Position numbers and translations under genes: made by a program
DNA from: a bacterium
GTDB taxonomy: Bacteria; Orphanbacterota; Orphanbacteria; Orphanbacterales; Orphanbacteraceae
Assembly (NCBI GenBank): GCA_025782575.1
Contig: JALGYY010000017.1
Coordinates: forward strand, 1 to 64,000
DNA: 64,000 nucleotides
Reading direction: 5' to 3'
Shown: in pieces, positions 19,690-57,730 of the stretch
How positions within the stretch are numbered: position 1 is the first letter of the stretch
Layout of the letters: the number at the start of each line of letters is the position of its first letter
The notes under the pieces: model-generated
The model's input: only the letters and a program-made list of their open reading frames with translations
Told to the model about the DNA's origin: nothing
The model's database searches: none

Positions 19690-20418
19690 CTACGCCTCCT
19701 CAATCAATAAGGGTACGATTTCGGCCGCCGGCCCGGAGAGAGAGATGTCGGCCTGCGAAGTGATCGGCGTCTCTTCCGGGTTCACTTCAATCAGTCGCGC
19801 CCCCGAATGCTTCGCCAGCAGAGGGAGCGATGCGGCCGGCTGAACCACGGCGGATGTTCCGATCGTGAGAAACAGATCACACGAAACGGCTGATTCGTGG
19901 GCATGTCGGACCGCCTCGATTGGTAGAGATTCTCCGAACCAGACAATGTCGGGCCGCATCATGTGCCCGTCCGGACAGGTCGGAATCGCCTTATCGTCCT
20001 CACCGGCGCTGAGTTCGCAAATATAGCCGTCAATCGGACAGCGAGCTCGAAACAGATTGCCATGGAGTTCCACAACCTCGATCGACCCCGCTCTTCGGTG
20101 AAGTCCGTCCACATTCTGCGTAATGAGGGAAAAGCGATCCCGCCCTCTTTCCATTTCCGCCAATGCAATATGGGCGGCGTTCGGATCGGCGCCCGCCACG
20201 ATCACCTGTCGGTAACGATACCACTCCCAGACCAGCTCCGGGTTCCTCTGAAATGCTTCCGGTGTGGCCAGCTCCTCCGGACGATGGCGGCGCCAGAGGC
20301 CCTTCTCTCCCCGGAATGTGGGCACACCACTTTCGGCGGACACACCGGCGCCCGTCAGCACGGTAATCGATCGGGATTGGGAGATCCAGCCTGCGGCGAG
20401 GCGAAGATCAGTGCTCAT
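19690..20418 (-). CDS. SIR2-family NAD-dependent protein deacylase
   Basis: Sirtuins remove acyl groups from lysine using NAD. The 242-residue protein has GAGVSAESGVPTFRG (about 23-37), the NAD-site ITQNVDGLH, and the catalytic His in VELHGN (about 119). Tyr67 and Arg70 in WEWYRYRQ match the Tyr/Arg pair that recognises succinyl and malonyl groups in SIRT5/CobB, so desuccinylation is likely. The zinc-binding module is unusual: only three cysteines remain (about 127, 134 and 148) and the normal CxxC pairs are missing. It lies 29 nt after the selenoprotein gene and 6 nt before the VWA gene. Confidence 0.9.
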   Translation of the reverse strand: MSTDLRLAAGWISQSRSITVLTGAGVSAESGVPTFRGEKGLWRRHRPEELATPEAFQRNPELVWEWYRYRQVIVAGADPNAAHIALAEMERGRDRFSLITQNVDGLHRRAGSIEVVELHGNLFRARCPIDGYICELSAGEDDKAIPTCPDGHMMRPDIVWFGESLPIEAVRHAHESAVSCDLFLTIGTSAVVQPAASLPLLAKHSGARLIEVNPEETPITSQADISLSGPAAEIVPLLIEEA

Positions 20419-20447: not shown

Positions 20448-21875
20448 TCAGTTGATCCAGGACCGATCGGACGTATGGACAACCTCTTCCAGGTAGCCGT
20501 CGTAATCGAAATCGGGACTGTGCTCCACAACATGACAACTCGAAGTGCACGTCGCTTGATTGACCCGAGAACGTCCGGCGCCACGGATATGATCGGTACC
20601 CATGCCATGGCACGATTCACACTGCACATTCCAGAGATCGGGCTGCAATTCTGTCGTCGAGTGCCCGCTAGGCTCGCCCCATGCCAGAACGTGGCAGTTC
20701 CAGCAGTCGGGATTCTCCCAGTCCTGCTCGCTTTCGGCAATCACCTGGAAGGCCTGGGAATGCACGGTCTCTTCGTAGCTCTCGTTAATATCGGCGTGGC
20801 AGATGAGGCAGGTCTGGGTGCCGAGGTAGCGGTCAGCTGACTGGGCAACCGTCTCGGTCTTCTGACGATCACGATTGGCGGCGGCACCCGGTTTCTGATC
20901 CTGATCGACCTGTTGCGACAGGTCCTTCTTCTTGTCTTTCTTGATCCGGACGCCATTTTCATCCAGTTCCAGATGGCCCCAAGCCAGACCCTTTACTACT
21001 TCATCCAGGGGACCGTCATCCTGCTGCAGTTGCCAGGACTTTCCCTCGAATGAAATGATCTGACCATCTTCGACGACAAGAGTGAGTTCACCGAGCATAT
21101 TGCTCCGCGAACCAGGGGACGCGAGAATCACGCCGTTCTCTTTTTTGGGTTCCGGGATCGAACGTCCGCCGTGACCGATCAGCATGACATCGTAGCCGCC
21201 GAGCTCCTCTGCGAGCAGCTCCCCCTTCTGGAGCCCGGTATGGGCGATCAGCACCTGCACGTCAGACTTCTTCTCCAGAATCTGGAGCATCTCAAGAGCA
21301 GCGGCTATGGGATCTGTCAGATCAACCCCTTCTCTATCTTTGATCGTTCGTGCCACGACAGCATCGCCACCGAGAATCGATGTAACCCCTACCTTGATGT
21401 TTCCAGCCTCGATGATCGTGTATGGCTGGTAGTGGAGTTCACCTGTCTCCGTATCGATTACGTTCGCATTGATGGCAAGCAGGCCGTTCTGTTCGATCAG
21501 CTTGTCCACTTCAGCGAGACCCCGGCTCAGTTCCTTCTCCCCGATCCCCAGCGCGTCATACCGCATCTGGCCCAGACACTGCAATGCAACCGGCGTGTCG
21601 TACCCGTAAGGGGGATTTTTTCGTGAAATAAAGTTACCCAGGTCAAGAAGGACGACCGGGTTCAGCTCTCTCTTCGCGTTAACCTCGCCGGCCCGCCGGG
21701 CCAGCCCACCTTTGCCTTTAGAGTGTCAGCCACACGGCTTGAGTTCGCCGATCGTCTCATTCGAGAACATCAGCGTTACCGTCTGGGGTCCCTTCGGGCC
21801 GAACATGCCGAAACCGGAGCAACCTGCGAACAATGTCGCGCCGAGAGCAAGGATGGTGATGGAAATCCGTTTCAT
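20448..21875 (-). CDS. UshA-like multihaem lipoprotein, probable selenoprotein (in-frame UGA)
   Basis: The full frame from ATG 21875 to 20448 is 475 codons, with one in-frame TGA at 21728-21726 (codon 50). Before it come a lipoprotein signal (ALGATLFAGC) and SNETIGELKPCG. After it the same frame continues HSKGKGGLARRA, a 5'-nucleotidase/UshA-like metallophosphoesterase region (GVTSILGGD, LIAHTGLQKGE, LIGHGG), and haem sites CLICH, CWNCH, CESCH plus an atypical CTSSCH. Relatives have Cys at the TGA position (PCGC), so Sec insertion is the best reading. A hairpin 21-39 nt downstream fits a bacterial SECIS, and selB is in this window. An ordinary reading would start only at 21584 and lack a signal peptide. 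AAGAGGT lies upstream of the ATG. The role is probably periplasmic redox or phosphoester chemistry. Confidence 0.85.
21687..21728 (-). promoter_or_regulatory. UGA codon and SECIS-like hairpin
   Basis: The TGA is at 21728-21726. Twenty nt later, arms GCTGGCCC (21705-21698) and GGGCCGGC (21694-21687) can form an 8-bp stem with one G-U pair and a GGC loop (21697-21695). Bacterial SECIS elements have a short stem about 16-37 nt after the UGA with a G among the first two loop bases. This hairpin satisfies that, although GC-rich coding DNA can form such stems by chance. Confidence 0.65.
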
Positions 21876-21935: not shown

Positions 21936-21964
21936 AAGTTAGCACAGGGCCTCGGGGGTGTCAA
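21936..21964 (-). promoter_or_regulatory. Sigma-70-type promoter of the selenoprotein operon
   Basis: On the minus strand a perfect TTGACA (21964-21959) is followed after 17 nt by TAACTT (21941-21936). It lies about 60 nt before the ATG at 21875. A small hairpin (21902-21918) sits in the leader. This supports 21875, upstream of the TGA, as the real 5' end of the gene. Confidence 0.65.
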
Positions 21965-22030: not shown

Positions 22031-25000
22031 TCAGAATCCCCCCAGCCGTCTCTCTCCTTTTTCATAGAAGATCTCCCGATGAGCTTTGACCCGGATATTG
22101 AAATAGTACTCCCACTCGTCGCCGGAAAATCGCCCGCGAAAACTCGCCTCCCAGCAATGGAGATCACGAATCACCCGAAAGCTCTGACTCACGATCTCTG
22201 AGTCTTCGAGGTCATATCGATTCTGATAACTCAGCTCCCAGTTCTTCGTCAATCCGACATCGAGAGAGCTGTTCAGCCACTGGGAGACGGGCGATCCAGG
22301 TGCACCGCGGGAGATGCTGTGCCGGAGCGACCCGGAGATCGGGATCACCTGGGAACTGGCTCGGCCTTCTCCGTGAACCCGCTTATCCCCCCGATAGACC
22401 TCCTCTTTGTCTTCCTCGAACGGGTCGTCCGATCTCCTCGAACTCCTCTGGTCAGGGGCGAGCGGATCATATTCGAACCCTTCCTCCCCCTCTTCGGGGC
22501 CCGGATCCGCCTCTCCCCCGAGGCTCCCCCGAAAGCGGTAACTCGAGTTCAGAGAAACCCGCTCGCTCGCCCATGAATAGACATCGTGGGTGAGCCCCAG
22601 TTCGGAACTGAAGCTCCTCAACGGTTGGAGGCGAATGCTCGTTGACAGGTCGGACCACGGCTTCTCTTTCGCCTGGTAGTTGTAGGAGGAGGAATTCGAA
22701 ATACTGATCAATTGATCGTTCTTCTTCACCTCTTCATCCCCGAGAAGGTACTTCGTCTGGATCTTGTGGGTCAGGCTGAGACCGAGCGACTTGCTCCGTG
22801 TACGCCGGGACGATCCGAACGCGCCAAAATTGAAGAAGCGGTCCGTTTCATCCCCATCTTCGTCGAGAAAGAAGTGATTCGGGTTTTTGGGTTTGATCGA
22901 GAAGCTGGCCGAGGGGGTCATGATATGGCGGAGCCCGTCCAGCGGGCCGATCCGAGGGAACCACGTACCATATATGTTGGTATTTGCGCTCATCGACGCG
23001 TCACCCATTCCGCGGCGCACTTTCTTCTGTCCGAGCCGGTCACTGTCGTACCAGGTCTCTTTCCAGTTTCCTCTCGTCGTGAGCCCGAGCCAGCCTCCGA
23101 CTTTCTGGGAGAAAGTAAATCGGAGATCATGGTTCCAACCGAAGTTATCCTCCCTCTCCAGAGATTCGAATGTCGTGTCCAGCGCGACCTGCCCGCTGTC
23201 CGTCTCGATAAAGATCGTCGTATCCCGGGAGACGGGCATCTCCTGCCGCGAATTCAAGAGGCGGGACGTATACCGATAGTAAATATCGTTGAACCACTTG
23301 CGTTCTACGTTACCTCCGCCCACCGCTTCCGGCGGCGGGAAGATCTCTGTCTGGTTCTGATTGTAAGAGATCGAAGGGAGTGTTTCGTCGATGCGATCCT
23401 GATCGAGTCTCTCCGTTCTCGTCATTTGAAGAGTAAACGATCGAGAGTTCCACCGCTTTTTCAGCGTGAGATCCGATTTCAGAGTGCGATCGAGTTCCTC
23501 GAGAGTGGTCGACTCCTCCACACGAAATGATCGATCACTTACGAAGTTCGCCCTCATGGTGAGATCCGTATTTTCGCCGATATCCTGATTATGTGAAGCA
23601 TTGACGCTCCACCGCCTCCGACCGTTCTCTGAACTCTTGAACGAAGTATTGATCGCGCCGCTCAGCAGATATCTCTTTCGATACCTCCCGTTCAGATACC
23701 CGATCCAGTGAGAGTTCTGAAAGAAGTCTCCTTTGAAAGTAAGGTCGGCGTAGTCGTTAATCGCCCAGAAGTAGCCGCCGTTCCGAATGAACCGTCCCTT
23801 CGACTCCGAGAATCCGAACTCAACCTGGGGCAATATGAAGCCGCTCGAACGATTCCCTTTGAGCGGGAAGACGTAAAACGGGAACCAGAGAACAGGCAGC
23901 TTCCCGATATGAAAAACGATCGGCCTCACGAAAGTCTGTTTGTCTGTGTAGATTTTCATCTGCTTCGCCGAAAAATAGTAATGAGGTTCGAGCTTATCGC
24001 AGCTCGTATAGATCCCATGATCGACGAGGAGTGTCTGGTCCCCGACACGGAGAATTCGACGGCCCCGGCAAGTTCCCTGGTCATAGGCCGTCACGCCCTC
24101 ATAGATCGTCCCCTTTCCATCCTTGACGTTGTAGATCATCCGTTCCCCGTCGACCTGCTGGCCTGCATCTTTCAGAACGGGCGATCCGAGAGCGGTGATA
24201 ATCGAGCGGTCAAGGTCATAGCGAATGAGGTCGGCGTCGAGGGCGGTATTCCCCTTCTCCACGTGGCCATGGCCCCTCAGAGTGAGACGGGATTCCGCTA
24301 TCTGGTAAACGACTCGATCCCCTTGATAGCGAACGCGCTCCTCTTCCTCTTCCTCAGGAGTCGCGTGGAGCGGGACAGTGACGGTGTTCCCACTAGCTCC
24401 TCCGGCAATATGCACATCGGTAAGATCATTCCCGTCGATGAAGAAGCGAATGGTGTCACCCTCGGCGTGGCTCCGCTCCCGTTCATCCGACACCAAATCC
24501 TCGATCGTTCTGTCACTTCTGGCGCCGCCGATGACATCGGTTCGAACGAGATCGCCCGACTCGAAAAAGAGGACGATCGAATCTCCAGTCGCTTCGGAAT
24601 GTTCGACAAGCAGAGAGTCGTCCTGAATGCTCAGGAGCGTGGCATTTCCCCGGACCACAACGCGTTCGATCTCGTCTTCGTCGCTGAAGTAGATCACCAT
24701 CGAATCGCCCGACATGGTTTCCCCCTGATGGGTGAGCACGGGTGATCCGCCGAGAATGACCGAGCGGGAGTCGGCGTCCATTGCCGTCCGGCCCGCCTCG
24801 GTAACCACGTCCCTGTAATCGGCAAGCGTGCCGCCGGATGCGTAGACTCGCTCCTCATCCGGGTAGATCGTGATCGTATCCCCCTCGAGGAGCCCCACTC
24901 TGGCGCCCGTGGAATCGACCTCTTCCATGAAAGGCTCTCCGGTAACGACGATCCGATCGGAGTCGAAGAACGCCTCTCTGCCGGAGACGCGCTGGTTATC

Positions 25001-25558
25001 CCGGTAGAGATCGATCAGGACGTTCCCCCTGGCGATCGCCTCTTCCCTCCCGGCAAATACATCGAGCGATTCGGCGATCATGAGCGCCGTGGAATCGATG
25101 ACACGTACTGAACCCCGAAAGATGATCCTGTCTTCCCCTCCCTCTCCCCCTTCCCCGAAGTGGAAGATCGCGCTCTCAGCCGTGATCGTCCTGTCCCTTT
25201 CGACCACCAGAACTCCGTCCGGGAATATCATCCTCTCGGATTCGGAATCGATCACCGCCCGTGGACCGTAGATCCAGCTTCCCTCACGGTAGATCGCCGC
25301 CCCCCCTTCCAGCCTGAGTTTGGAAATCTGCTCTCTCCAGAGTCCGCGGTAAGCCGAGGCGACGATTCCACGATTTCTGTCGAAGAAACGGACATTACCG
25401 ATGAGATCGAGCGCGGACTCTCCATCGCCGAGCGAGCGGAGGACGAGCGAATCGCCGGATACATAAACGGACTCGCCGTCCAGTTCAGACTGGGCCAGAG
25501 TGATTCCCGGCAGCAGGAAGATTGTAAGGAGACAAAGGGCGAGGCGGTTCGCGCTCAA
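22031..25558 (-). CDS. lptD: LPS assembly outer-membrane protein LptD, enlarged
   Basis: LptD inserts lipopolysaccharide into the outer leaflet of the outer membrane. The protein is 1175 residues, much longer than the roughly 780 of E. coli. A signal peptide (LLTIFLLPGITLAQ) is followed by about 500 residues of repeated OstA/LptA-like strands (for example GNVRFFDRN, GGSPVLTHQGE, LGSPVLKDAG). The conserved LptD core then begins (YTSCDKLEPHYYF, PVLWFPFYVFPLKG, SSGFILPQ), leading into the barrel. An acidic low-complexity insert (EEGEEGFEYDP) sits in a late loop. It overlaps the accD stop by 4 nt. A large N-terminal jellyroll in FCB bacteria may replace part of a separate LptA bridge. Confidence 0.92.
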   Translation of the reverse strand: MSANRLALCLLTIFLLPGITLAQSELDGESVYVSGDSLVLRSLGDGESALDLIGNVRFFDRNRGIVASAYRGLWREQISKLRLEGGAAIYREGSWIYGPRAVIDSESERMIFPDGVLVVERDRTITAESAIFHFGEGGEGGEDRIIFRGSVRVIDSTALMIAESLDVFAGREEAIARGNVLIDLYRDNQRVSGREAFFDSDRIVVTGEPFMEEVDSTGARVGLLEGDTITIYPDEERVYASGGTLADYRDVVTEAGRTAMDADSRSVILGGSPVLTHQGETMSGDSMVIYFSDEDEIERVVVRGNATLLSIQDDSLLVEHSEATGDSIVLFFESGDLVRTDVIGGARSDRTIEDLVSDERERSHAEGDTIRFFIDGNDLTDVHIAGGASGNTVTVPLHATPEEEEEERVRYQGDRVVYQIAESRLTLRGHGHVEKGNTALDADLIRYDLDRSIITALGSPVLKDAGQQVDGERMIYNVKDGKGTIYEGVTAYDQGTCRGRRILRVGDQTLLVDHGIYTSCDKLEPHYYFSAKQMKIYTDKQTFVRPIVFHIGKLPVLWFPFYVFPLKGNRSSGFILPQVEFGFSESKGRFIRNGGYFWAINDYADLTFKGDFFQNSHWIGYLNGRYRKRYLLSGAINTSFKSSENGRRRWSVNASHNQDIGENTDLTMRANFVSDRSFRVEESTTLEELDRTLKSDLTLKKRWNSRSFTLQMTRTERLDQDRIDETLPSISYNQNQTEIFPPPEAVGGGNVERKWFNDIYYRYTSRLLNSRQEMPVSRDTTIFIETDSGQVALDTTFESLEREDNFGWNHDLRFTFSQKVGGWLGLTTRGNWKETWYDSDRLGQKKVRRGMGDASMSANTNIYGTWFPRIGPLDGLRHIMTPSASFSIKPKNPNHFFLDEDGDETDRFFNFGAFGSSRRTRSKSLGLSLTHKIQTKYLLGDEEVKKNDQLISISNSSSYNYQAKEKPWSDLSTSIRLQPLRSFSSELGLTHDVYSWASERVSLNSSYRFRGSLGGEADPGPEEGEEGFEYDPLAPDQRSSRRSDDPFEEDKEEVYRGDKRVHGEGRASSQVIPISGSLRHSISRGAPGSPVSQWLNSSLDVGLTKNWELSYQNRYDLEDSEIVSQSFRVIRDLHCWEASFRGRFSGDEWEYYFNIRVKAHREIFYEKGERRLGGF

Positions 25559-28087: not shown

Positions 28088-29653
28088 TCAACGTTTCGGT
28101 GTGAGGGTCACAAGCGGGAGAATCACTTCGTCCATCGAAATCCCGCCGTGCTGGAACGTATTTCGATACTGCCGCTCGTACTCGTGGAACTTCGTGGGAT
28201 AGACGAAATAGTAGTTCTCCCTCGCGAAAATGTAGTTCTTATTGAGCGACTCAGAGGGGAGACGATAGTCTTTCGGGTCTTTCACTTTGACTACCTGTTT
28301 CTCATCACAGTTCAGATTGCTTCCGAACTTGTAGCGAAGGTTGGTGGACGCCTCTCGATTACCGTAAACCGTGGTCGCTTTCTTGCAGAGCACGGATCCA
28401 TGATCAGTCGTGATAACGACCTTCGCCTTCTGTGTGGAGATCGCTCTCAGAATCTCGAACAGCGCCGAGTGCTTGAACCAGGATTCCATTACGGAGCGGA
28501 ACGCCGATTCGTCAGGGGCGAGTTCCAGAAGAATCTCTGATTCAGACCGGCCGTGAGCGAATATGTCGACGAAATTAAATACGAGGGCGACGAGCGGAAT
28601 CGAGTAAAGCGAAGATACCTGTCGTTTGATCTGGTCCCCCTCTTCAATATTGAAGATCTTGCGGTATTTGGGGGGGTGAGCCAGGTGCACTTTGCTTCGC
28701 CTGATCTGCTCCTCCATCAGTTGACGTTCAAATCGATTCTTGCTCCGTTCGTCGTTATCGAGTTCGGACCACCATTCGGAGTAGCGACCTGCAATCTCAT
28801 CGGGATAGAGCCCGGCGAATATCGCGTTCCGGGAATAGGGTGTAGCGGTGGGCAGGATGGAGTAATGAAAATCAGTCTTCATCTGAAAGTAAGGCTCGAG
28901 CAATGTCTCGAGCGCGAACCAGTGATCGAGCCGCATGCAGTCGATCACGATAAAGTAGACCTTCTCGCCGTTCTCGATCGCCGGAAAAACGCGCTCCTTG
29001 AAAATGCCGGGAGAGAGAAGCGGCCCTGGTGAACCGTGCACCCAATCCTGATAGTTCTTGGAGTAATAGCGGCCGAACTCGGCATTCATCTCCCGCCGGA
29101 TGTCTTCGTGAGTCTGCTTCAGCCCGAGATCGCGAAACCGGTCGAGTTCGAGGTCCCACTTGCAGAGGCTTTTGAAAATTCCCGTCCAGTCGTTCCAATC
29201 CGCTGTCGGTGCGGTGGCACGAATCCGGTTATAGTCGGCAAGATAGTCCTGGGTAACCTGATTCTGCTCGATCCGGTCTTTTTCAAGGACTCGCCGAAGG
29301 GCCGAAAGGATCTGGACCGGATTCACGGGCTTCAGCAGGTAGTCATTGATTCGTTTCCGGATCGCCGTGTCTACAAGGTCCTCTTCTTCGCTCTTGGTGA
29401 TCATGATGACCGGCATGTTGCCGTCCAGCTCTTTGATCCCTTCGAGCGTCGAAAGCCCGTCGCGGCCGGGCATCATCTCATCGAGGAGAACCGCATCGAA
29501 CGACTCTTCGCCTACAAGTCGAACCGCTTCGTCTCCCGAAGTAACCGTAACCACATCATAGCCTCTCTCCTCGAGAAACATGACATGCGGTTTCAGGAGC
29601 CTCACTTCATCATCGGCCCAGAGTATTCGTTTCCTACGGTCCACTTTATTCAC
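28088..29653 (-). CDS. porX: PorX-like response regulator with PglZ phosphatase domain
   Basis: The 521-residue protein has an N-terminal receiver domain: acidic pocket WADDE, phosphoacceptor Asp58 in DAVLLDEMMPG, and the conserved Lys in YLLKPVNP. The C-terminal half is a PglZ/alkaline-phosphatase-like domain with metal-ligand motifs VIDCMRLDHW, NFVDIFAHG and ITTDHGSV. This is the layout of PorX, which in Bacteroidota controls the type IX secretion system and has nucleotide phosphodiesterase activity. A GTG start at 29653 follows GGGGAGAGA. The histidine kinase gene ends 22 nt upstream. No T9SS structural gene is visible, so the output may be different here. Confidence 0.88.
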   Translation of the reverse strand: MNKVDRRKRILWADDEVRLLKPHVMFLEERGYDVVTVTSGDEAVRLVGEESFDAVLLDEMMPGRDGLSTLEGIKELDGNMPVIMITKSEEEDLVDTAIRKRINDYLLKPVNPVQILSALRRVLEKDRIEQNQVTQDYLADYNRIRATAPTADWNDWTGIFKSLCKWDLELDRFRDLGLKQTHEDIRREMNAEFGRYYSKNYQDWVHGSPGPLLSPGIFKERVFPAIENGEKVYFIVIDCMRLDHWFALETLLEPYFQMKTDFHYSILPTATPYSRNAIFAGLYPDEIAGRYSEWWSELDNDERSKNRFERQLMEEQIRRSKVHLAHPPKYRKIFNIEEGDQIKRQVSSLYSIPLVALVFNFVDIFAHGRSESEILLELAPDESAFRSVMESWFKHSALFEILRAISTQKAKVVITTDHGSVLCKKATTVYGNREASTNLRYKFGSNLNCDEKQVVKVKDPKDYRLPSESLNKNYIFARENYYFVYPTKFHEYERQYRNTFQHGGISMDEVILPLVTLTPKR

Positions 29654-29675
29654 TCTCTCCCCGCGTTCGTGAATC

Positions 29676-30995
29676 TCAGGCAGGTAGGGTAATGGAGAAC
29701 ATCGTGCCGGCCCCGATCTGGCTTCGCTCGATCGCGATCTTGCCGCCGTGATAATCCTCGATGATCCGGCGGGAAAGCGCGAGCCCGAGCCCCCACCCCC
29801 TCCTTTTGGTACTGAATCCGGGATGAAACGCGCGGCTCTGCTCCGAGGGGGACATGCCCCGGCCATCATCAGAAAACGTGATCTTCACCGTGCCACTCAT
29901 GCGGTTATACCCGGTCTTGATCGTGATGGTTCCTCCTCGGTCGGCCATGGCATCGATGGAATTCCGAAACAGATTTTCAACTACCCATTCGAGAAGCTCA
30001 CTATTCACGTTACATGGAGGAACTTCTTCGAATTCTTCGACCAATTGGATATCCCGGCCTATCCGATCGAATCTCTTCCTGAGATAACTGAGCGCGTCCT
30101 TCAAGATCGGATTGACCTCAAGCATCTTGAGTGTAGGGAGGGATCCGATATTGGAGAATCGATAGGCGATCTTGTTCAATCTTGTCAGGTCTTCTTCCAT
30201 CTCACTCACCACCTCACCAAGCTGATTGGTGTCGAGCGAAATCTGTCCCTTACCGACATCGCCTGCACGGCTCCGCAGGAGGTGGAGCCACCCGAGGAGC
30301 GAGGAGATGGGGGTTCCGAGCTGGTGGGCAGTCTCTTTGGCCATCCCGATCCAGATCGAACGCTGCTCTCCTTCCTTGAGCCCTCGATAACCTAAGTACC
30401 CCAGAATCAGGAAGATTCCGAGAACCGCCACCTGAATCACGGGAAGAAACCGGAGCTGCGCCGCAATCCGGGAATCACCGTAATGAACATGCCCGATGAT
30501 CGTTCCACCTCGTGGATCGTAGAATGGGATCGGCGGCTGATCTTCGTCCATTCGAGCCGCAATTCGGAGCAGTTCCCTCATCGCTCCGGGCGGCGGGTTT
30601 TCGGGGTCGGTGTAAACGAAATCCTCGTAGGAAACATCCCCGATACGTAAAGATACTTTGTTCAGCTCTTCGGGGATACCGTGCCATGTCCAGGGGACAC
30701 CCCTGTGATCGGTAACGATAACGGGGAAGGGAATATCCTCGACCACTTCACTGAAGATTCCCGAGATAGCCTGATTGCGTGATGCCGGGACGATCGTACC
30801 GGCACAGAATTGCGCGAAAATCCGACTGAGCACTTCCGATTCTTTTTCCAGCCGGTCGATGACGTGTTGGGTATAGAAAAACAAGGTGAGAATGAGAAAC
30901 CCGCTTCCCAGAAACACGTAGGCCCGGAGAATGGCGGATGACACCTGGCCTCTCTCTGACTGTCCCCCCGAACGATGTCTTGTTATCCGATCCAT
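29676..30995 (-). CDS. Membrane sensor histidine kinase (PorY-like)
   Basis: The protein is 439 residues. Two membrane helices (about 23-42 and 184-203) enclose an extracytoplasmic sensor of about 140 residues without a recognised fold. The H box is MAKETAHQLGTPISSLLGW (His224), a form typical of FCB-group kinases. The N box is ENLFRNSIDAM, and the G boxes are FSDDGRGM and GWGLGLALSRRI. It is immediately upstream of the PorX-like regulator, so the two form a natural pair. It overlaps the end of serS by 13 nt. Confidence 0.9.
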   Translation of the reverse strand: MDRITRHRSGGQSERGQVSSAILRAYVFLGSGFLILTLFFYTQHVIDRLEKESEVLSRIFAQFCAGTIVPASRNQAISGIFSEVVEDIPFPVIVTDHRGVPWTWHGIPEELNKVSLRIGDVSYEDFVYTDPENPPPGAMRELLRIAARMDEDQPPIPFYDPRGGTIIGHVHYGDSRIAAQLRFLPVIQVAVLGIFLILGYLGYRGLKEGEQRSIWIGMAKETAHQLGTPISSLLGWLHLLRSRAGDVGKGQISLDTNQLGEVVSEMEEDLTRLNKIAYRFSNIGSLPTLKMLEVNPILKDALSYLRKRFDRIGRDIQLVEEFEEVPPCNVNSELLEWVVENLFRNSIDAMADRGGTITIKTGYNRMSGTVKITFSDDGRGMSPSEQSRAFHPGFSTKRRGWGLGLALSRRIIEDYHGGKIAIERSQIGAGTMFSITLPA

Positions 30996-43764: not shown

Positions 43765-45546
43765 TCAGGGCCCGGGGCTGAAGCGGAATCGGAGCGTCGC
43801 TTTTCTCGGTTCCAGGGCACCGTCAGCGACGTAGCGACACTGATAGGCTGCCGCGAGGGCGGGCCCCTCGAACTCGGGTGATGAGCTCCTGATAATCCAG
43901 GCATCCCGAACTCGCCCCCCACCTCCGACTTCCACCTCCACATCGACCTCACCGGAGGGGGTGGGGCTTCCCTCGTTAAACAGCGGATAGTCCGCCTCTA
44001 CTCTGCTTTCTAGACGGAGGGGGCCCGGTGGCCCGAGAATCGGAACAGTCTGTCCCTCCCGAAAAACTTCGATCTCTCCTTCACCCGGGAAGACTCGAAT
44101 TCTCCCGTACTCCTCATATGCCTCTTCCGCGATCGAGTCCTGTCTGCTTTCATGGATTTCGTCCCATGCCGCCCTCCAGAAGGCCAGGGAATCCTCGGAC
44201 ACTTCCACATCCCCTCGGTCGAAGTGTTCGATTGCGGCCTCGCTCCGCGGATAGCGTCGAATGAGGTCCCGTACCGTCGACACGCGAGCGCCTTCGTCAT
44301 CATCTCTCAATTTCATCAGATAAGCCTTGGCCGCCAGGGCCTTCGGCGCCAGTTCCGACTCGGGATAGTCGCGTGCCACCCGATCGTACCGTGGAAACGC
44401 CGAATCAATCTCGCCGAACTCGAAGAAGGAATTCTCCGCCAGCAGGAACTCCGCCTCGGCACTGTCGAGCACCCCTTCGGCCAGCTTGCTGAGCAGGATG
44501 GACTGCTCCCCGAGAGCAGCGGTAAGGCGGGACGCTTTTACTTTGGTTTCCGGTTCCGCCTGGTAGGTCGCTACTTTGCGAAAAGCACTCGCCGCTGAAT
44601 CCTTCCGGCCGTACTCGTACAGATAGATCTCGCCAAGCTCATAAGCCATCTCACCGGCCACCGGGGCGGATGGGGATCCATCAAGCGATTCCTCGTAGAG
44701 AGTGACGACTTCCTGTAACCGCCCCTCCGCGATCAGTGCCTGGCCCCATCGGTGATCGACCTGCATTGAGTCGATCCGGCTCGAAACTTCGGACCGAACC
44801 GTCTGCAGAAACTCGTACGTCTCTTCGTACCGTCCCTCGTCAATCAGAAGGTCCGCCAGATCAAGCGAAGTACGAAATCGCTCCGTCGGGAGAAGAACCG
44901 GATTATCGAGACGCCTCTCGTAGGCATCGCGGGCGGCAGCGTAGTTGCCTGCTTCTCGGTAGGAAGCGCCGAGAAAGACGCGTGCCCTGTCGGCATTGTC
45001 CGTGTTTCCTTCTTCCTTGAGGAAGCTCTCAAAACCACGGGCCGCTTCTTCGTAATTCCCCTGTTCATACTGGACGCGTGCATAGAGAAAGTCCGCCTCT
45101 CGCTTCCATCCGAGATTAGGGCTGTTCCGATAGGCTTCCAGAACGCTGACCGCCTCACCATATCGATCGAGGGCGACATACGTTTTGGCCTTGAAGAACC
45201 GAGCTTCCTCAGCAATCTTCGTGTTTCCATAATAGGAAGCGATCTCGTCGAATTTCCTGAGAGCTGCCAGATAGTCCCCTTTGGCGTACATGCACTTACC
45301 CATGAGAAGGACGGCGTCATCGACCCACTTGGAATCGGGATGCTCGACAATCACCTTGGCGCACTTTTTCATCGCTTTCTCATAGAGATCCAGGCCGATT
45401 TTGCCCCGTTTTTCTTCGGGCGTACCTGCTCTCGCCTCTTCAGCATCATCGTAGTATTTACGCGCGTTAAAAAAGGTGTTGTAGTACGCGCACCCGGACA
45501 AAACGAAGGAGACAAGCAAAATAGCGAGGAGACAGCGCCGGATCAT
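43765..45546 (-). CDS. TPR lipoprotein with C-terminal TonB-like domain
   Basis: The 593-residue protein has a lipoprotein signal (LVSFVLSGC) followed by AYYNTFFNARKYYDDAE, a start seen in many FCB-group TPR lipoproteins. Repeated TPR/BamD-like units fill about residues 30-440 (for example LLMGKCMYAKGDYLAALRKF, ARVQYEQGNYEEAARGFESF). The last 90 residues (VDVEVEVGGGGRVRDAWIIRSSSPEFEGPALAAAYQCRYV) match a TonB C-terminal fold. Such a fusion could link an outer-membrane complex to energy or peptidoglycan. It is the last gene of the dusB-lar-pyr operon and overlaps pyrC by 4 nt. Confidence 0.85.
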   Translation of the reverse strand: MIRRCLLAILLVSFVLSGCAYYNTFFNARKYYDDAEEARAGTPEEKRGKIGLDLYEKAMKKCAKVIVEHPDSKWVDDAVLLMGKCMYAKGDYLAALRKFDEIASYYGNTKIAEEARFFKAKTYVALDRYGEAVSVLEAYRNSPNLGWKREADFLYARVQYEQGNYEEAARGFESFLKEEGNTDNADRARVFLGASYREAGNYAAARDAYERRLDNPVLLPTERFRTSLDLADLLIDEGRYEETYEFLQTVRSEVSSRIDSMQVDHRWGQALIAEGRLQEVVTLYEESLDGSPSAPVAGEMAYELGEIYLYEYGRKDSAASAFRKVATYQAEPETKVKASRLTAALGEQSILLSKLAEGVLDSAEAEFLLAENSFFEFGEIDSAFPRYDRVARDYPESELAPKALAAKAYLMKLRDDDEGARVSTVRDLIRRYPRSEAAIEHFDRGDVEVSEDSLAFWRAAWDEIHESRQDSIAEEAYEEYGRIRVFPGEGEIEVFREGQTVPILGPPGPLRLESRVEADYPLFNEGSPTPSGEVDVEVEVGGGGRVRDAWIIRSSSPEFEGPALAAAYQCRYVADGALEPRKATLRFRFSPGP

Positions 45547-54777: not shown

Positions 54778-55799
54778 GACAATACGTCTCGCAGAATGCC
54801 GGCCGCTTCTCTGACCTGATGGTCGGCCACATCGAGATGAGTTACAAGACGGAGTCGGCGAGCGCCGATCGTGAGAACAAGAACCCCCTTTTCCGCCAGC
54901 CTGGCCAGGATCTCCTCGTCCGACATAGGGTGGCGTTTCACATCGGCAATCACGATATTGGTTTCCACACCGCCCGGATCGATATCGATCTCGGAGAGAT
55001 CGGCGAGCGCCTCGGCCAGAATGCGGGCGTGTTTGTGATCTTCCCGGAGCCTTTCCCTGTTGTTTTCGATTGCGTAGATCCCGGCAGCCGCCAGAATGCC
55101 CACCTGGCGCATCCCTCCCCCGAGCGATTTCCGCACTCTCCTTGCGCTCTCGATGACTTTTCGTGCACCTGCAACCAGGGATCCGACCGGCGCACCGAGT
55201 CCCTTGGAGAGACAGACCGAAATCGTGTCGGCGCATGCCGCATATCGGTCTAGGGGGATGCCGCTCGCCATCGACGCGTTCCATAGCCTTGCGCCATCGA
55301 GATGAATCGGGATGCCCCGGTCCCTCGCCAGGAGTGCGACATTCTCCATCTCCTCGATCGGGAAAATCGTACCGCCTGCCTTATTGTGCGTATTTTCGAT
55401 ACAGACGAGCGATGTCGGCGGATAGTGCAGATCATCGGGCCGGATAAGAGGCTCCACATCACCCGCACGGAACCAGCCATTTCTGCTCGTGATCAACCGG
55501 AACTGGATTCCGGCATACCGCGCGGCCGATCCCTGTTCAAAATTATAGACATGGGAGCCCTGTTCAGTAATCGCCTCGGTTCCCGGACGACAGAGAGTCA
55601 TGATTGATGTGAGATTGGCCATCGTACCGCTCGGGACAAACAGGGCCGCTTCTTTTCCGAGCAACTCCGCGACCCTCTCTTGCAAGACGCGAACTGTAGG
55701 ATCTTCATCAAAAACGTCATCACCTACTTCGGCTCGGTACATGGCGTCCCGCATACCTTGGGTAGGAACTGTCAGAGTATCACTTCGCAGATCGATCAT
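54774..55799 (-). CDS. ltaE: Low-specificity L-threonine aldolase
   Basis: The PLP enzyme cleaves threonine to glycine and acetaldehyde. The 341-residue protein begins [20 protein letters not shown], has FVPSGTMANLTSIM and HLDGARLWNA, with the PLP lysine in SVCLSKGLGAPVGS. It overlaps selB upstream and rsmI downstream by 4 nt each. Some aldolases also act on related beta-hydroxy amino acids. A direct link to selenocysteine metabolism is not supported. Confidence 0.94.
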   Translation of the reverse strand: MIDLRSDTLTVPTQGMRDAMYRAEVGDDVFDEDPTVRVLQERVAELLGKEAALFVPSGTMANLTSIMTLCRPGTEAITEQGSHVYNFEQGSAARYAGIQFRLITSRNGWFRAGDVEPLIRPDDLHYPPTSLVCIENTHNKAGGTIFPIEEMENVALLARDRGIPIHLDGARLWNASMASGIPLDRYAACADTISVCLSKGLGAPVGSLVAGARKVIESARRVRKSLGGGMRQVGILAAAGIYAIENNRERLREDHKHARILAEALADLSEIDIDPGGVETNIVIADVKRHPMSDEEILARLAEKGVLVLTIGARRLRLVTHLDVADHQVREAAGILRDVLS

Positions 55800-57730
55800 C
55801 GCCCTTGCTCCCTCGCCTGGTCAGCTCCGTCAGGATTGAAGTTCCGCCCCGGTATGCGCCTGTCATCCTCTCGCCGCGTGAATCCACAGCCGTCGAAGTA
55901 CTCTAGAATCGGCACAGAGTACTTTCTGCTGAGACCGGTCAACTGCTTGAATGCGGCAATATCGATTTCACCGGCCGATTCGATGTGCCCCCGAACAAGG
56001 CGGGTGATCTCCCCGATTTCCTCCGCGCGATAGATGAGACCCGGTGGGATACGGACCACCTTGCCGAGCCGGGAGAGAAGATCGAGCACGGCTGACAGCT
56101 CTTTCTTCTCGACACCCGCCCCAGCGGCAAGATCGATCGCGGACGGTGGTGTGAAACCGGATTTTTCCAGTAAAGTCTCAACCTTTTCCCACACCCGGGC
56201 CACCTCGGGCGGAAGTCCTCCCCGGCCGAAGAGGATCAGCTCTCCCTGACCCATGATCATCCCCTTTGCTTCGAGCCCTTTCAAAAGCAGATTGAACAGG
56301 GGGAGTTCCACCCGCCGGGTAAGCCCCTTTCGGATCGTCTCACGGGGAACGCCCGGCTGAAGCGGGGACTTCTCAGCGACCGTCTTCACTGTCTCGACAA
56401 TCTCATCCTGAAGTGTTTCGATCATCTCCTCCCGGACAATATTTCCGCCGATGATCCGGACACGATTTTCCGAGAGGAGTACCTCGATCGATTCTTCCAC
56501 TTCAGCTGAAGCGAGCCGCAATCGAGAGGCGAGATCCCTGGCGGGAAGCTGAGCCTCTCGCGACGCCTCCAGTAAGGCCTCGATTCTGGCGGGGCGATCA
56601 CCCTTTTCCATTACCGAGAGGAACTGTAGATCGGCGCGGCGGCCCCGCTTTCTTTTGGGAGGGTCCGGATCGATCACGATCGCGCCGGCGATCGTCCGCG
56701 CAGGAGAGTATGTGCGGATGATGATCCGGTCACCTGTGGCGAGGGCGGCCGCCGTCTCCAGCCGGAGCTGGGCCAGGCAGTCGCTCCCCGCCTCGATCGT
56801 CTCATTTTCGAGCGGAATCACCCGCCCGAGAATTTCCGCAGCACCATGGTGAACACGGACTCTCTGCCTGTGCACGATTTCTTTGGAGCGGGGGGAGAGG
56901 CGGAGTCGGACATCCACCATGTGGGAGGGGGCCAGAACGCCGGGAGTCACGAGCTGATCCCCCCGGGAGACCTCCGACCTCCCTACGCCGTGCAGTGCCA
57001 GAGCGGTTCGCTGCCCTGCGTGCGCCTCATCAACCTCTTCGTGAAACACCTCTACTTTTCGTACACGAACCAACCGGCCGCCGGGTACGATCTCCAGCTT
57101 GTCACCTGTACTGATCCGGCCCGACCAGACAGTGCCGGTCGTCACCGTACCGAAGCCTCTCGACGAAAAAACGCGGTCCACAGGTTGTCGGAACCAATCC
57201 GCCGTCTCCCGGGCGGGCGCCTTTTCGATGGCGGTCAGAAGCGCCCCCTTGATGTCCGACAACCCTTCGCCGGTTACTGCCGACACCTGTATGATCGGCG
57301 CATCGGCGAGTGATGTTCCGGCAAACGCCTCGCGCACATCCTCCATGACCAGTTCGCGCATCTCCTCGTCAGCCAAATCTGATTTGGTAAGCGCGATCAC
57401 GCCGGTTCTTACATCAAGAAAATGAAGAATCTCCAGATGCTCCTCTGTCTGAGGCATGACTCCTTCATCTGCGGCGATGGTGAACAGAACGGCGTCGATC
57501 CCGCCGACGCCGGCGAGCATGTTCTTTACGAAGCGCTCATGGCCGGGGACATCCACAACAGCGACGCGGAGGCCGCCCGGTAGATCGAGGGGAGCAAACC
57601 CGATATCGATGGAAATCTTCCGCTCTTTCTCTTCTTTGAGCCGGTCGGTATCGACACCTGTGAGGGCTCGGACGAGGGTTGTCTTTCCGTGGTCGATGTG
57701 GCCCGCCGTGCCGATGACCTTGCTGATCAT
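55796..57730 (-). CDS. selB: Selenocysteine-specific translation elongation factor
   Basis: SelB is the GTPase that delivers Sec-tRNA to UGA codons next to a SECIS. The 644-residue protein has G1 [14 protein letters not shown]2/G3 DIGFAPLDL and [13 protein letters not shown], and G4 TKSD. It has the SelB-specific [15 protein letters not shown] and [19 protein letters not shown]. From about residue 370 there are several winged-helix units that bind SECIS RNA ([19 protein letters not shown] is the typical end). Its presence shows that UGA can be read as Sec in this organism. It lies between murA and ltaE in an operon of wall and translation genes, with no selA, selC or selD in view. Confidence 0.96.

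Follow-up and report, generated by a model that had tools for sequence, protein, structure and literature searches.

The window, a 64,000-nucleotide stretch (positions 1 to 64,000) of contig JALGYY010000017.1 from a bacterium of the Orphanbacterota, carries on its reverse strand a gene for a UshA-like protein with four haem motifs (Table 1). The initial annotation had described a single frame from the ATG at 21875 down to 20448, interrupted only by a TGA at codon 50, and the 475 codons of this frame bear that out. Conventional ORF listing yields only a 378-residue frame starting at TTG 21584. This codon had been taken for an ATG, but the first in-frame ATG downstream of the TGA is at 21566 (residue 104). 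The good promoter proposed at 21936-21964 consists of just TTGACA and then TAACTT and was not among the sites reported by a sigma-70 scan. The lipoprotein signal ahead of the TGA includes a probable lipobox; orthologues aligned there have a cysteine in the equivalent place (e.g. ALTGC and GLAGC).

Table 1. Features of the selenoprotein locus and related genes in the window.
Feature	Position	Strand	Basis or remark
CDS, 475-residue UshA-like selenoprotein, Sec at codon 50	20448..21875	-	ATG 21875, stop TGA 20450-20448
Signal peptide; LFAGC as probable lipobox (Cys19)	21819..21875	-	read by eye
UshA-type phosphoesterase fold, most metal ligands lost, about residues 30-290	21006..21788	-	AlphaFold2, Foldseek, ligand table
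Cys48, partner of Sec50 in CxU	21732..21734	-	in every row of alignment A1
TGA codon 50, selenocysteine (PCGU)	21726..21728	-	TGA in 7/7 phylum genomes; other homologues have Cys (TGC/TGT)
SECIS hairpin, 8-bp stem, apical loop GGC, UGA-to-loop distance 28 nt	21687..21705	-	bSECIS model and comparison
Haem motif 1, CLICH	20796..20810	-	
Haem motif 2, CWNCH	20691..20705	-	
Haem motif 3, CESCH	20607..20621	-	
Haem motif 4, CTSSCH (CX3CH)	20532..20549	-	CXXCH in full-length orthologues
LptD-like protein, upstream neighbour	22031..25558	-	Pfam LptD_2, 1.1e-68
Sirtuin deacylase (cobB-like), downstream neighbour	19690..20418	-	NCBIfam NF001753, 281 bits; synteny in five relatives
selB, selenocysteine-specific elongation factor	55796..57730	-	TIGR00475, 378.9 bits, cut-off 242

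The C-terminal domain matches Pfam Cytochrome_C554 (PF13435; 7.9e-11, residues 355-424, 43.2 bits against a cut-off of 20.8), and with three CXXCH motifs and one CX3CH motif in a predicted exported protein, the gene product probably qualifies as a c-type cytochrome. The protein shares this domain with the cytochrome c554 family but fuses it to a Sec-bearing domain. The description as UshA-like and multihaem thus stands for the UshA-like domain and for the presence of haem motifs, though not for the fourth of them, which is CX3CH rather than CXXCH. Among full-length orthologues, the CX3CH form is found in this genome only; CTSSCH represents a variant haem site, or else a short insertion that keeps the frame.

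Could the TGA encode selenocysteine in this organism? Besides the selB gene, which the initial annotation had already recognised in the window, the genome contains selA (524.6 bits), selD (379.1 bits) and a tRNA-Sec gene (selC) with anticodon TCA (72.7 bits, over the cut-off). The selD gene (L057, about 2974) has an in-frame TGA of its own near its start (ATKAG-U-AAKH), and hence is probably itself a selenoprotein gene. Among the large ORFs of the window, TGA is also the commonest stop codon (27/42), and it terminates the UshA-like gene itself, indicating that this genome does not recode TGA in general. A genome-wide reassignment of TGA, for example to tryptophan or glycine and with no selenocysteine involved, found no support in our data and can be dismissed, as the homologues have U or Cys in the relevant column and never Trp or Gly.

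Strong evidence comes from orthologues. The same codon is TGA in all seven genomes of the phylum that were examined, including the window's own, and the full-length orthologues share 50-62% identity with the window protein. The reading frame is conserved upstream and downstream of the TGA, and on either flank dN lies well below dS, pointing to purifying selection. A scan of named contigs gave only three loci, all of the same clade, two in Candidatus Eisenbacteria MAGs and one in a contig labelled Gemmatimonadetes. A second paralogue, likewise with TGA at that codon, is present in all seven genomes. A single TGA in a single assembly would be compatible with either a nonsense mutation or a base-call artefact; we found no specific support for either, and given the same TGA in six other assembled genomes (which argues against a local sequencing error), the purifying selection and the paralogue with its own TGA in the same genome, a pseudogene or sequencing error has a negligible chance of being the explanation.

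In more distant homologues, the column of residue 50 holds either TGA or a Cys codon (Cys for example in L107, L109, L114, L071 and L031). The initial annotation had placed the TGA at a position of Cys/Sec exchange, and the family comparison agrees, with Cys or U throughout. The surrounding motif in the window protein is KPCG-U-HSKGKGGLARR. The initial annotation's pairing of the Sec with a Cys two residues away is borne out as Cys48-Gly-Sec50, and in our alignment of 21 sequences (A1), C48, G49, residue 50, G56, G57 and R61 are invariant. Some further paralogues deviate from this pattern. A third, shorter paralogue without the haem domain but with the CxU motif occurs in two genomes (L058, 3704-4747; L059, 3557-4618); it has a hydrophobic N-terminal stretch instead of a lipobox and branches inside the window clade. 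A paralogue in genome G003 (L062, about 3,500, on G003:C28; also L087), which lies outside alignment A1, reads PVGU, with Val in place of Cys48, while its Sec codon and a SECIS-like hairpin are kept.

Several of the invariant residues lie between the TGA and the possible restart codons, and this bears on whether the locus might instead be a split gene, producing a 49-residue peptide and a shorter protein that restarts at TTG 21584 or ATG 21566. The 378-residue open frame from the TTG would allow for this. However, the short product would lack both the export signal required for c-type haem attachment and the most conserved motif of the family, making a split gene highly improbable. We conclude that the TGA at 21728-21726 very probably encodes selenocysteine, making the gene a genuine selenoprotein gene, as the initial annotation had proposed. 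Of the refuting observations named there, neither homologues without Cys or Sec at this column nor a lack of selA, selC or selD in the genome turned up.

The bSECIS model (PMC13188914, Fig. 2) requires a loop of 3-9 nt, a stem of 4-16 bp, a G in the first two loop positions, a UGA distance of 16-37 nt and an MFE of -7.5 or lower. The hairpin downstream of the TGA, which had been predicted at exactly this position, satisfies this model with its 8-bp stem, GGC loop, 28-nt distance and -18.6 kcal/mol. On its own, this is weak evidence; 17.5% of the window's TGAs satisfy the model (2.9% if the stem is at least 7 bp), and the folding energy does not differ significantly from that of shuffled sequences in this GC-rich DNA (z -1.06). 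A scan of the window against Rfam at gathering scores gave no match, and hence no Rfam support for a SECIS element.

Comparison, by three tests, gives the SECIS strong support. Amino-acid-matched resampling revealed synonymous constraint under the hairpin (p about 5e-5, the lowest value the test can give), with an equal result for the second paralogue group. Most codons there hardly change, GGG CTG GCC CGG CGG being identical in the orthologues compared, whereas the rest of the gene uses varying codons for Gly, Leu and Arg. Two stem pairs show compensatory changes, from C-G to G-C in six sequences and from G-C to A-U in one. Pairing is possible in 93.8% of cells in the alignment, and shifting the structure along it lowers this to 50% or less. 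In a first set of sequences, the model was satisfied by 19/19 members with TGA and 0/3 with Cys, and in a wider set by 14/15 with TGA and 5/14 with Cys, although the rows are related and the counts hence not independent.

The hairpin occurs in two registers within the family. In the window clade and in members next to it in the tree (L128, L129 and L145 too), the loop is GGC or GGA and lies 28 nt after the UGA, while most other members (L105, L106, L112, L118, L120, L124, L130 and L133) have mostly GGUCU-type loops at 18-19 nt. During the history of the family, the hairpin seems to have shifted its position by some ten bases while the peptide encoded beneath it stayed conserved.

We also modelled the structure of the protein with AlphaFold2, using A1 as the alignment. 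The model is mostly confident for residues 57-280, with low pLDDT for the haem domain and for residues 46-56, which form the CxU loop. Foldseek matched it to 5'-nucleotidases (3ivd, E 4.8e-21, and E. coli UshA, 1hp1, E 1.1e-20), identifying a UshA-type fold. In E. coli UshA numbering, the active-site positions considered here are D41, H43, D84, N116, H117 (catalytic), D120, H217, H252 and residue 254. We compared these nine positions in an alignment that joined the family to six canonical UshA homologues, of which three belong to the same phylum. The canonical homologues, same-phylum paralogues included, retain 9/9. In the window protein, the series reads E, I, N, E, K, S, H, H and G, retaining only the equivalents of H217 and H252 (2/9). 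Across the family, N116 and the His at residue 254 are absent from every CxU/CxC row, and H43 and the catalytic His from all of these rows except L127, in which H43 is retained and a His lines up with position 117. Judged from these aligned residues, the presence of CxU/CxC always goes with a dismantled nucleotidase site. The CxU pair itself sits a few residues past the former D-x-H motif of the first metal; as expected for the family in its broad sense, the window protein has its CxU after the first beta-strand, followed by GG[LV]xRR.

With the catalytic His gone, and with it most ligands of the dinuclear metal site, the window protein is not expected to be a nucleotidase. It might still be an active 5'-nucleotidase or other phosphoesterase that the selenocysteine merely assists, and the UshA fold and the two remaining site histidines would fit this. 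Against it stand the seven substitutions, at the equivalents of D41, H43, D84, N116, H117, D120 and residue 254, in a comparison where every canonical homologue is intact, and we consider continued phosphoesterase activity very unlikely. A selenoprotein on a dead phosphoesterase scaffold is a joint reading that we hold with high confidence.

The protein belongs to a recorded family. UshA-like CxU selenoproteins were counted in the 2008 Global Ocean Sampling survey, with 76 Sec sequences, under COG0737 (PMC2398784), and a 2026 review lists them as NF041198 (PMC13188914). The initial annotation's suggestion of a new selenoprotein lineage thus does not hold; the window protein is a divergent branch of this family, and not a new kind. 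All 21 aligned members match the NF041198 model (UshA_like_PCGU), which is also the best NCBIfam match of the window protein. At 208.7 bits, however, the window protein falls below the curated cut-off of 275 and is therefore not filed as an equivalog, whereas the second paralogue of the same genome passes (287.6 bits). The window protein has the PCGU motif of NF041198, the GGLARR after it and the UshA-type domain followed by a multihaem C-terminus, but differs in having also lost the equivalents of D41 and D84, in its CX3CH motif and in its position in the tree, where the window clade stands apart (8 rows, 100/100 support, a stem of 1.22 changes per column). The family is widespread, with matches over the cut-off in 32 of 386 genomes.

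Other known proteins are less similar. The related profile NF049981 (UshA-like (seleno)protein family 2) matches the N-terminal region of the window protein, but at 30.3 bits against a cut-off of 140, and the motif listed for that family is CxxU rather than CxU (PMC13188914). E. coli UshA and CD73-type 5'-nucleotidases share the fold of the N-terminal domain, whereas the window protein lacks most of their metal and catalytic residues and has a haem domain in place of their C-terminal nucleotidase domain. Our literature search found no paper joining Eisenbacteria with selenocysteine, and none on the multihaem cytochrome c selenoprotein MccSep. A 730-residue frame in another lineage (L033, 91-2280) combines a UshA-like domain carrying CPTC, a thioredoxin-like stretch with CHYC and a membrane part resembling DsbD/CcdA. 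We set this fusion aside as a hint of thiol exchange; its thioredoxin-like matches are below the cut-off, and Pfam gives no match for the membrane part.

What might such a protein do? Translation of the TGA would proceed by SelB binding the SECIS hairpin, 28 nt past the UGA at 21728, and delivering Sec-tRNA to give Cys48-Gly-Sec50, a step strongly supported by the sequence comparisons. The product is an exported selenoprotein of the UshA-like CxU family, probably with a lipid anchor. The CxU pair is its likely active site. Cys48 and Sec50 could act as a selenenylsulfide/selenol-thiol couple, trading electrons with an extracytoplasmic substrate, perhaps a disulfide or a selenium or sulfur compound, and the haems would carry these electrons onward. 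The loss of the metal site, together with the multihaem C-terminus, suggests an envelope oxidoreductase built on a dead phosphoesterase scaffold. We tentatively favour such an enzyme, with Sec/Cys chemistry and haems relaying electrons, while giving it somewhat less than an even chance. The coupling of selenocysteine and haem is called into question by the paralogues that have CxU without a haem domain and by the one that has Sec with Val for Cys48, showing that both the haems and Cys48 are dispensable across the family.

The same paralogues keep alive a competing reading, in which Sec50 is a structural residue or a ligand of a metal or haem rather than a thiol-type redox centre. The G003 paralogue, having lost Cys48 while keeping its Sec, indicates that the pair is sometimes dispensable. 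The structure of MccSep (PDB 9wt8) has also been solved, although its match to the window protein is not significant (E 0.81) and we rejected it as a relative. Conversely, CxC or CxU is the rule in the family, and CxU is kept in members without haem motifs. We therefore regard a ligand role for Sec50 as unlikely, though still a serious contender to the envelope oxidoreductase.

The gene neighbourhood may offer a further hint. The order accD, lptD-like gene, window gene, cobB-like sirtuin gene and VWA gene is kept in relatives as far as their contigs reach. In two other lineages, an lptD-like gene also lies upstream, directly adjacent in G031 (L069) and at a distance of about 2.7 kb in G331 (L143). 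Three cysteines in the LptD-like protein are conserved across relatives. From gene position, we conjecture that the window protein may be linked to disulfide maturation at the outer membrane. Elsewhere in the window, 28088-29869 and 43765-45546 hold a PorX gene (658 bits, over the cut-off) and a PorW/SprE-like match below the cut-off, possibly reflecting regulation of type IX secretion outside Bacteroidota.

Ordinary gene calling would truncate the window protein, and the curated NCBI model would miss naming it, despite its presence in all seven genomes of the phylum. What is new here is that the UshA metal site is dismantled in the CxU/CxC proteins of the family, yet intact in canonical UshA paralogues. 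Perhaps all CxU/CxC proteins form a redox class converted from a metallophosphoesterase, which lost its metal site and gained a Cys-Sec pair beside it, often along with four haems, and which in Eisenbacteria works with the adjacent LptD, for example in outer-membrane disulfide maturation; this wider proposal is possible but doubtful. The loss of seven of the nine active-site residues, next to canonical paralogues that are intact, offers a concrete functional hypothesis for the family, in which a phosphoesterase fold may have been turned to redox chemistry based on selenium, with the haems as a wire.
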